A stretch of 64,000 nt of DNA from a candidate division TA06 bacterium B3_TA06. Its GTDB lineage: Bacteria > Hydrothermota > Tepidihabitantia > B3-TA06. Location of the stretch: positions 62,001 through 126,000 of the forward strand of contig NJBO01000001.1 in NCBI GenBank assembly GCA_005223075.1. The letters run 5' to 3'. The notes under the pieces are model-generated. The model ran no database searches. It was given only the letters and a program-made list of their open reading frames with translations, and was not told the DNA's origin. The translations under genes were made by a program, and so were the position numbers. Shown one piece after another: positions 49,593-51,908 of the stretch (the first letter of the stretch is position 1; every line of letters begins with the position of its first letter).

Positions 49593-51047
49593 TTAGCGTA
49601 GAACGACGACTTTTGTGCGTGCCGAGTAACCCTCGGTTGTAACCCTGGCGAAGTAGACGCCGGAGGGAAGGGAGGAGGGCTGGGAGGAGGGCGTCCAGGT
49701 GCCTTGGCCCTGGATGGTTTCGGTAAGCACGCGGCGGCCGTCTGCGGAGTAGAGGGTAAGGGAAGCTTGGCCGGGGAGATCGTACGCCAGGCGGTTGATA
49801 GTGGTTGTGATTCGAATTGGTGATTCGATTAGTTGTTCGGCGACTCCGGGTTCCTTCTCGTAGCCGTACTCCAGGAGCCAGAAGTCGGCGCCGCCTTCGC
49901 CCCAGGAAGAGGTGAAGCCGGGCAGCATGAAGTTTCCATTAGGGTTCATCTTAGGGAAATAGCACCACTCATCTGCTTCTGCACCGTAGGTCTGGGTACA
50001 CAGGGTGTCGCCAAGCGTATCTATCGCCAATACCCACAGGTCATAGCCGCCGGCGCCGAATGAAGAGGTTCGTGCTGAGATGAGGTACATACTATCACCA
50101 GAAGGGCATATTCCGTAGCCTTTATCATCGCCTTCGCCGCCGTAGAATTTTGTCCATACCGTATCTCCTGCCTCATCCAGCTTCAGAATCAAAACATCGC
50201 TATGCCCGGTCGGATTAGCGGTTCCTATAACGAGATAGCCGCCGTCAGGAGTCTGGCAAGCGCTGTGACCGCGGTCGAAGCTGCCCCATTCGTACAACTG
50301 GTCCCAGATGACCTCACCGGCTGAATCAGTCTTCACCACATAAACATCCCAGTTCTCAGGAGGAGTAATTCCCGAACAACCCACAAACAGGTAGCTTTCA
50401 TCAGAAGTCTGGCAACCCGAGAAGAATAGCTCGCCGCTGTATTCAGGTCGGCCAGGATCGTATTTCTTGCCCAAAAGCCAGGGGATATCACCGGTGGCCG
50501 GGTCGAACTTGAGGACCCACGCATCGGCAGAGCCTCCAGTACCGAAAGACCAGGTGTATCCGACAACCAGGTAGTTGCCATCCAGGGCAGGCACCATGGT
50601 AAATCCGGTATCATGATCCTCGCCTCCGTAAATCTGTTCCCATACCGTTACGCCCGACGAATCTACCCTGATCAGCCAGAAATCAGTGTTGCTAAAGGGA
50701 AAGAGTGTAGTAGTCCATCCAGAGGCAATATACTCGCCATCAGAGGTTTCCAGAACGTCATAAAATCCATTGGCGCGTGCAGTACCGTAGGTTTGTTCCC
50801 ACTCGACGTTGCCTGCCGAATCGGTCTTTACCAAGTAGCCGTCCCAGTCGCCTGCGCCCATGGAGTTGGTAACACCGGCGATGATGTACCCACCGTCAGA
50901 GGTGGGGCATACCGAATAAGCGGTATCCTCCATTGCGCCGCCGTAGGTCTTTGTCCACAGGGTATCAGGGGGCTGGGCAAAAAGAGGGCTTGCAGAAAGG
51001 AGTATAACCATCCCAATAAGGGATGCATACATATAACGCTTACTCAT
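49593..51047 (-). CDS. Secreted repeat protein with C-terminal sorting-like domain
   Basis: A 484-residue protein with a signal peptide (cleavage after SPLFA). It has seven ~55-residue repeats, TKTYGGAMEDTAYSVCPTSD followed by GGYIIAGVTNSMGAGDWDGY and LVKTDSAGNV-type strands, as in the 387-1739 gene, suggesting a beta-propeller. The tail (LTLYSADGRRVLTETIQGQG, LPSGVYFARVTTEG, ending KVVVLR) is a sorting-like domain. The promoter is at 51144-51171; the ribosome binding site is GAGGAG. Confidence 0.82.
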   Translation of the reverse strand: MSKRYMYASLIGMVILLSASPLFAQPPDTLWTKTYGGAMEDTAYSVCPTSDGGYIIAGVTNSMGAGDWDGYLVKTDSAGNVEWEQTYGTARANGFYDVLETSDGEYIASGWTTTLFPFSNTDFWLIRVDSSGVTVWEQIYGGEDHDTGFTMVPALDGNYLVVGYTWSFGTGGSADAWVLKFDPATGDIPWLLGKKYDPGRPEYSGELFFSGCQTSDESYLFVGCSGITPPENWDVYVVKTDSAGEVIWDQLYEWGSFDRGHSACQTPDGGYLVIGTANPTGHSDVLILKLDEAGDTVWTKFYGGEGDDKGYGICPSGDSMYLISARTSSFGAGGYDLWVLAIDTLGDTLCTQTYGAEADEWCYFPKMNPNGNFMLPGFTSSWGEGGADFWLLEYGYEKEPGVAEQLIESPIRITTTINRLAYDLPGQASLTLYSADGRRVLTETIQGQGTWTPSSQPSSLPSGVYFARVTTEGYSARTKVVVLR

Positions 51048-51206: not shown

Positions 51207-51745
51207 TTACGGACTGTAGTGTATCCGCTCGCCTGCACTGCCGCCTTCTCCTTCAATGCCTTCAGGATCACTGTTGCTTACACGCCACCATGCTGTGTAG
51301 GTAGGGTCAGGCTCGCTGTCGTAGTTGAAGTGGTAAGGGTCGGTACTGGCCCAGGTGCCTACGACGGTAAAGGTGTCAGGGGGGAACCCGGTGATCGTGA
51401 GAATCGCATAACCTGACCAGGCACCATTATAGGCTTCCTTTTGGCCTTCTTGACCTGTGGGTTTCGAGCCGCTGGCCCCCGGCCAAAGCTTAATGGTCCA
51501 GCCACTCGTGGCGCAGGTGAAAGTCGAAGGAGTTATAGTGCTGACGAAAAACGTATCGACGTCTCCAGAGGTGAGGTCCTCAAGCCTGCCTTCACCTTCC
51601 ACATAGTCAAAGGGGTCGCCCTCTAAGAAGGTGAGGAATCCTGAGTTGAACCAGCCGTCCCATCCTTCATAATAGCCGTAGGCGCTTGTAGCGTCCACGA
51701 GCATCACCGCAACCGCGGCGATGATAAGGATTTTTTTTTGCGCAT
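51207..51745 (-). CDS. Secreted protein gene, signal peptide out of frame at an A9 tract
   Basis: The best start is ATG at 51745 behind AAAGGAGG, giving MRKKK then a run of nine A (51739-51731). As written the frame stops after 13 codons. One extra A would give KKILIIAAVAVMLVDATSAY, a textbook signal peptide joined to the body (YYEGWDGWFNSGFLTFLEGD to the end). The body is a ~150-residue beta-rich domain with no recognised family; it has two cysteines and an aromatic core. The gene may be switched by tract length, by transcriptional slippage, or carry a sequencing error. Its promoter spacer holds a ten-base G tract. Confidence 0.6.
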
Positions 51746-51820
51746 CTCGTACCTCCTTTAGGTTTGCGCGTTTTTCTCTCTCCCCGAACCATCTCTCGCC
51801 CTCATTTAGCTGTCCGCCTG

Positions 51821-51848
51821 ATTGTACTCATCCCCCCCCCCATGTCAA
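51821..51848 (-). promoter_or_regulatory. Promoter with a ten-base G tract in the spacer
   Basis: TTGACA (51848-51843), a 16-nt spacer of T, ten G (51841-51832) and ATGAG, then TACAAT (51826-51821), on the minus strand. Tract length changes would move the -35/-10 spacing away from 16. Confidence 0.8.
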
Positions 51849-51908
51849 GTGTTTTTAGACATAACTAAATTAAATAGTATCACCGATTGAACTGAAACCG
51901 GCGGCAGT

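Follow-up and report, generated by a model that had tools for sequence, protein, structure and literature searches.

Homopolymer tracts in promoter spacers point to a probable phase-variable family of small exported proteins in Candidatus Stahlbacteria

A locus in a 64,000-nucleotide stretch of contig NJBO01000001.1 (hereafter the window) is probably one of several copies in a family of small exported proteins which is both phase-variable and diversifying, of the type represented by Vlp, PorA and Tp0126. Homopolymer runs of G, C or T recur between the -35 and -10 boxes of the family promoters. Slipped-strand mispairing during replication would lengthen or shorten such a run and so bring the spacer closer to, or further from, the 16-17 nt used by the promoters of this organism; each copy could then be on or off independently, and a population would be a mosaic in its surface or secreted proteins.

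The locus in the window

The gene and all features described here lie on the minus strand. Its promoter comprises a TTGACA -35 box (51843-51848), conserved in all eight paralogues of its own genome, and a TACAAT -10 box (51821-51826), separated by a spacer of 16 nt, the commonest length in the genome. The spacer reads T, ten G (51841-51832) and ATGAG; the G10 tract is the proposed transcriptional switch, and in other family promoters the equivalent position is taken by homopolymers of G, C or T that differ from it in length. The original prediction of a TTGACA/16 nt/TACAAT promoter with ten G in its spacer proved correct base for base. A conserved upstream element, TGATACTATTT (51872-51882), is located 23 nt before the -35 box; it also accompanies family promoters and a gene of the downstream type that stands alone. 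The ribosome-binding site, AAAGGAGG (51752-51759), was called strong, and the start codon is the ATG at 51745-51743.

As had been claimed, the frame opened by this ATG runs into nine A (51731-51739) and stops after 13 codons in the assembled sequence (51704-51745, stop included), and a signal peptide with its body lies one base away. With one base more, the reading frame gives MRKKKI, then LIIAAVAVMLVDATSAYG and a body ending at 51207. In this shifted frame the signal-peptide core and exported-protein body occupy 51207-51728, a translation of 173 aa starting at 51728, and the mature protein, modelled as a ten-stranded barrel-like fold with AlphaFold2, spans 51210-51674. With its 16-nt spacer the window copy is predicted to be transcribed; as assembled, it would be transcribed but its translation would end at codon 13.

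Homopolymer tracts in the family promoters

The family set comprised 27 promoters from seven genomes, in which a run was defined as an uninterrupted stretch of at least seven G, C or T between the -35 and -10 boxes; in the relatives, some -10 boxes depart from the consensus sequence and were placed by visual inspection. Exact-consensus promoters of the window genome served as controls (158 matches, none with the reversed pattern; 96 non-family promoters listed). Runs were present in 15/27 family spacers, against 2/96 of the other promoters (Fisher 3e-10), and in 4/8 family promoters when only the window genome was considered (Fisher 2e-4), both significance levels being overstated because related promoters are counted as independent. 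One of the two control exceptions, C5:95304 (G8, 13-nt spacer), is itself a reduced ninth slot of the family. The downstream-gene promoters in the same slots yielded no run of this length (0/16; 1.5e-4 against the family by the same test and with the same overstatement), and 15 of these 16 have a spacer of 16 or 17 nt. Runs shorter than seven were registered in the remaining 12 of the 27 family promoters.

Spacer length followed a similar pattern. The family spacers range from 12 to 21 nt and fall outside 15-18 nt in 10/27 cases, against 6/96 for the other promoters; 72 of the 96 controls have a 16-nt spacer. The modal length of 16 nt in the genome hints that transcription of family members may depend on tract length.

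The eight copies of the window genome all share TTGACA, TAYAAT and the leader, and most share an upstream element resembling TGATACTATTT. Their spacers include T-G10-ATGAG (16 nt), TACCT-C9-TAGCGCC (21 nt), TA-C7-TAGCACC (16 nt) and CTGGGGTG7TAATGAG (21 nt), the remaining four being C/T-rich (16, 16, 16 and 14 nt). Relatives in other genomes have G11, C10, C8, T7, T8, T9, T11, T12 or G8T8 in the same place. For the promoter tract, the prediction, which the absence of tracts from related genomes would weaken, is upheld by this comparison, because equivalent spacer homopolymers recur across the paralogous family and their length varies with the flanks conserved.

Homopolymer runs in the genome as a whole

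The lengths of the two window runs are in themselves unremarkable for a genome of 2.41 Mb, which contains eight G/C runs and seven A/T runs of at least nine. Two of these eight G/C runs sit within promoter spacers of this single gene family, a placement with a chance probability of about 2e-7. For a G/C run and an A/T run to lie no more than 110 nt apart, as they do in the window, the chance probability is about 0.005, for a coincidence spotted after the fact. A chance origin of the tracts was rejected: their lengths are ordinary, whereas it is unusual for them to cluster in the promoters of one family.

Three further long runs were recorded. A small gene resembling those for lipoproteins (MKKALLAVMAVALVMGFAGCD...) has a G10 next to its TTGACA, at G000:C19:23338-23347, and is an unrelated candidate for tract-dependent expression. 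Another G10, at G000:C5:92995-93004, adjoins a TTGACA upstream of a 404-aa open reading frame, with tandem GTGTTACGG-like repeats before it. An A9 at G000:C21:27402-27410 is in frame near the N-terminus of a membrane-protein reading frame (LERKKNPAFG), another site where a slip would break the gene.

The A9 tract near the start codon

Of the two homopolymer switches originally proposed, the promoter tract holds up, as a feature of variable length found across the family, while the case for the A9 tract is weaker. The start regions of the paralogues usually contain lysine codons with A4-A6, in frame, and the window copy is the sole one out of frame among the eight of its genome; elsewhere, only a more distant relative (L042), read by eye, is shifted, at an A7 after the start codon. 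The A9 frameshift is thus not a family feature, one distant copy being comparable. Since the paralogues are in frame and only these two copies are shifted, the A9 may be a switch that is currently off, a mutation of recent origin or an error of assembly. Taken together, the A9 and A7 frameshifts lend weak support to a second switch, with mutation or assembly error equally likely.

The strongest alternative concerns the number of switches, namely that the promoter tract is real and the A9 is a mere mutation or assembly error. The in-frame A4-A6 of the paralogues and the isolation of the window copy within its genome speak for it; the out-of-frame A7 just past the start codon of the distant relative and the rarity of A/T runs of at least nine (seven in 2.41 Mb) speak against it, and we consider the balance to be roughly even.

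Nine-A runs provoke slippage. It could be, then, that RNA polymerase or the ribosome slips on the A9 and bypasses the frameshift, in which case the tract would tune expression and not stop it. The sequence is a slippery one and a single-base shift is all that is needed, but the paralogues manage without an A9, and such a bypass appears unlikely.

Tract length against constant flanks

The clearest length changes are found among promoters which are otherwise almost the same. In one genome (G005), four promoters differ by 0-3 substitutions and by no indel in 58 flanking bases, yet they carry T8, T11, T12 and G8T8, with spacers of 13, 17, 18 and 20 nt. Likewise, two copies identical over 56 nt downstream (L029/L032) have spacers of 16 and 21 nt, and a further pair (L033/L036) has spacers of 16 and 14 nt.

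All the variation seen lies between paralogues and between species, and in one pair (L040/L053) a T9 is unchanged between two species. These observations, and the existence of tracts just 5-7 long, are what would be expected if the tracts were slowly evolving tuners of promoter strength, differing between copies and fixed within a population. We hold this to be improbable, as pure G10, G11, C9, C10, T11 and T12 are within the length range which is unstable elsewhere, and spacers of 12, 13, 20 and 21 nt exceed fine tuning.

The protein family and its range

Eight full paralogues, the window protein and seven further copies, were found in the window genome, in addition to the reduced slot. Relatives occur in 6/7 other genomes of the same taxonomic family and in 0/53 more distant genomes searched; the named matches are metagenome bins of Candidatus Stahlbacteria / candidate division WOR-3. 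Among the genomes searched, the family thus appears only in one family of this group. A phage-borne origin was considered and rejected, no relative being present in viral contigs.

The window protein had no match in Pfam. Of the 22 members of a wider alignment, one had a hit to an NCBIfam model (E 0.002) and two to a Pfam model (E 0.006), all weakly, and no clear relative of solved structure was identified by sequence. AlphaFold2 applied to this alignment gave a confident model of the mature protein with ten strands (pLDDT 94.8, pTM 0.86), replacing an earlier and poor eight-sequence model (pLDDT 74). The nearest solved folds are the small outer-membrane barrels Ail, OmpW, OmpX, OmpA and NspA, with TM scores of about 0.5-0.63 and a best structural match at E 1.5e-3, none being below 1e-3. 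The protein was not assigned as a membrane barrel of the Ail/OmpX/NspA/OmpW kind. Export of the family protein is well supported by the signal peptides; membrane insertion is not, because most predicted strands lack a distinct hydrophobic side that could face lipid and the family has a low pI (4.05-4.56).

Incomplete copies were also observed. The ninth slot (G000:C5, 95304-95440) has a G8 promoter with a 13-nt spacer, the leader and the signal peptide, and lacks the body, its frame ending right after the signal peptide. Two other copies (L062 and L039) are broken; the latter (G004:C162) has neither -35 nor -10 box and contains one internal stop, having apparently collapsed between two ATGTCTAAAAA stretches.

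Selection and recombination

Across the seven alignable copies, which derive from two genomes, the mature protein has a dN of 0.35 and a dS of 0.32, both of which recombination can distort, with a ratio of 1.07 that becomes 0.92 after columns near gaps are dropped. In these slots the gene that follows has a ratio of 0.31. The bodies of the seven copies contain no stop codon, where neutral evolution would have introduced about 3.3 on each branch of that length. These values are best explained by diversifying selection acting on a protein that is maintained, although a whole-gene ratio near 1 is no proof of it. That the family is instead decaying or under relaxed selection, its spacers drifting in length without function, is highly improbable: it would account for the ratio near 1 and for the truncated, body-less and broken copies, but not for the complete lack of stops in the seven copies, the conservation of -35 box, -10 box, ribosome site and signal peptide, or the fact that the runs are pure and that any of three bases may form them at this position.

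Family copies also appear to have been exchanged by recombination between chromosomal slots. At one slot, 1303 nt of upstream sequence match the sister species G001 at 97.5% identity, and the promoter and body that follow are a different cassette. Draft metagenome bins can misassemble repeated families, and individual cases of slot exchange or truncation may be chimeras, because the assemblies are draft and several junctions are near contig ends. The neighbouring comF gene served as a marker for locating the slot of the window copy in the sister genomes; they contain comF (98% identical in G001) and lack the family gene there, so that the genome set holds no direct orthologue of the window copy.

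At three further loci, two in G001 (L057, L066) and one in G004 (L059), promoter regions are joined to internal parts of family bodies at short homologies; these junctions are either real deletions or assembly chimeras.

Comparison with known systems

Several paralogues which share a conserved promoter and signal peptide and diverge in the mature part, as the eight copies do, are a Vlp-like feature. The Vlp lipoproteins of Mycoplasma hyorhinis form a multigene surface family with a promoter A tract for each member, and Vmm of M. mycoides varies through repeat changes in the promoter spacer (PMC10502178). The present family resembles Vlp in being a multigene family whose members have a promoter homopolymer. 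It departs from both Vlp and Vmm in its unrelated proteins and phylum, in a tract of G, C or T which differs among copies, in copies scattered on the chromosome, and in a switching behaviour that is predicted from sequence. Membership of Vlp by descent is not claimed, because the window protein has no Pfam match.

PorA of Neisseria meningitidis has a poly-G between its -35 and -10 boxes, the spacing of which sets transcription with an optimum of 17 nt (PMC7864442). The window locus shares the position of the poly-G; however, PorA is a single gene with that 17-nt optimum, whereas the genomic mode here is 16 and the protein is unrelated. In Treponema pallidum, the OmpW homologue Tp0126 and the poly-G tpr genes carry poly-G in the -35/-10 spacer, with an optimum of 17 nt demonstrated by reporters (PMC7864442). 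Both the poly-G in this spacer and the small barrel protein have a counterpart here, the latter as a predicted, barrel-like fold, but the sequences are unrelated and membrane insertion of the family protein is unproven. For an uncultivated bacterium, switching by repeat tracts has been proposed in Ca. Mycoplasma girerdii, in which repeat variation was drawn from a metagenome and length variants were counted in reads (PMC5476646). The likeness lies in the inference of repeat-tract switching for an uncultivated organism; unlike the present case, Ca. M. girerdii is a host-associated mollicute with read-counted and mostly dinucleotide repeats which affect reading frames.

A literature search outside most subscription journals returned no paper on phase variation in connection with Stahlbacteria or WOR-3, in agreement with the original suggestion that it had not been described in this group, and a 2025 survey of WOR-3 genomes leaves phase variation unmentioned (PMC12542636).

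More tentatively, and less probably than the main reading, the locus may be part of a Vlp-like combinatorial surface system in a lineage of sediments and similar habitats. Such a system would have at least eight independently switched promoters, a tract base (G, C or T) travelling with promoter-body cassettes exchanged between slots, a second frame switch in certain copies, and an exposed protein under diversifying selection, for which attack by phages or protists is a possible cause. Most known cases of homopolymer-driven surface variation come from bacteria living on or in hosts. If the phase-variable reading is true, uncultured environmental populations would keep the same kind of surface bet-hedging. 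A switchable family is testable in existing metagenomes through tract lengths in reads, and would offer a way into an undescribed family of exported proteins and into the attackers or surroundings that these cells face.

The downstream gene

The next gene on the minus strand (49593-51047) encodes a secreted protein of 484 aa and has its own tract-free promoter (TTGACA 51171-51166). It takes the place where most other slots hold a different secreted gene of about 470 aa or longer. The protein has a weak match to the DUF5122 propeller and a weak match to the Por_Secre_tail C-terminal sorting domain (E 0.0024, below the cut-off), the latter hinting at a type IX-like secretion route.

A gene of the downstream type (MLNISLLALTL...) stands by itself at three other loci (L115 at G000:C13:12283, L112 and L108). 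There TGATACTATTT immediately precedes its promoter, an arrangement that would result if a deletion between two TTGACA boxes had removed the first gene.
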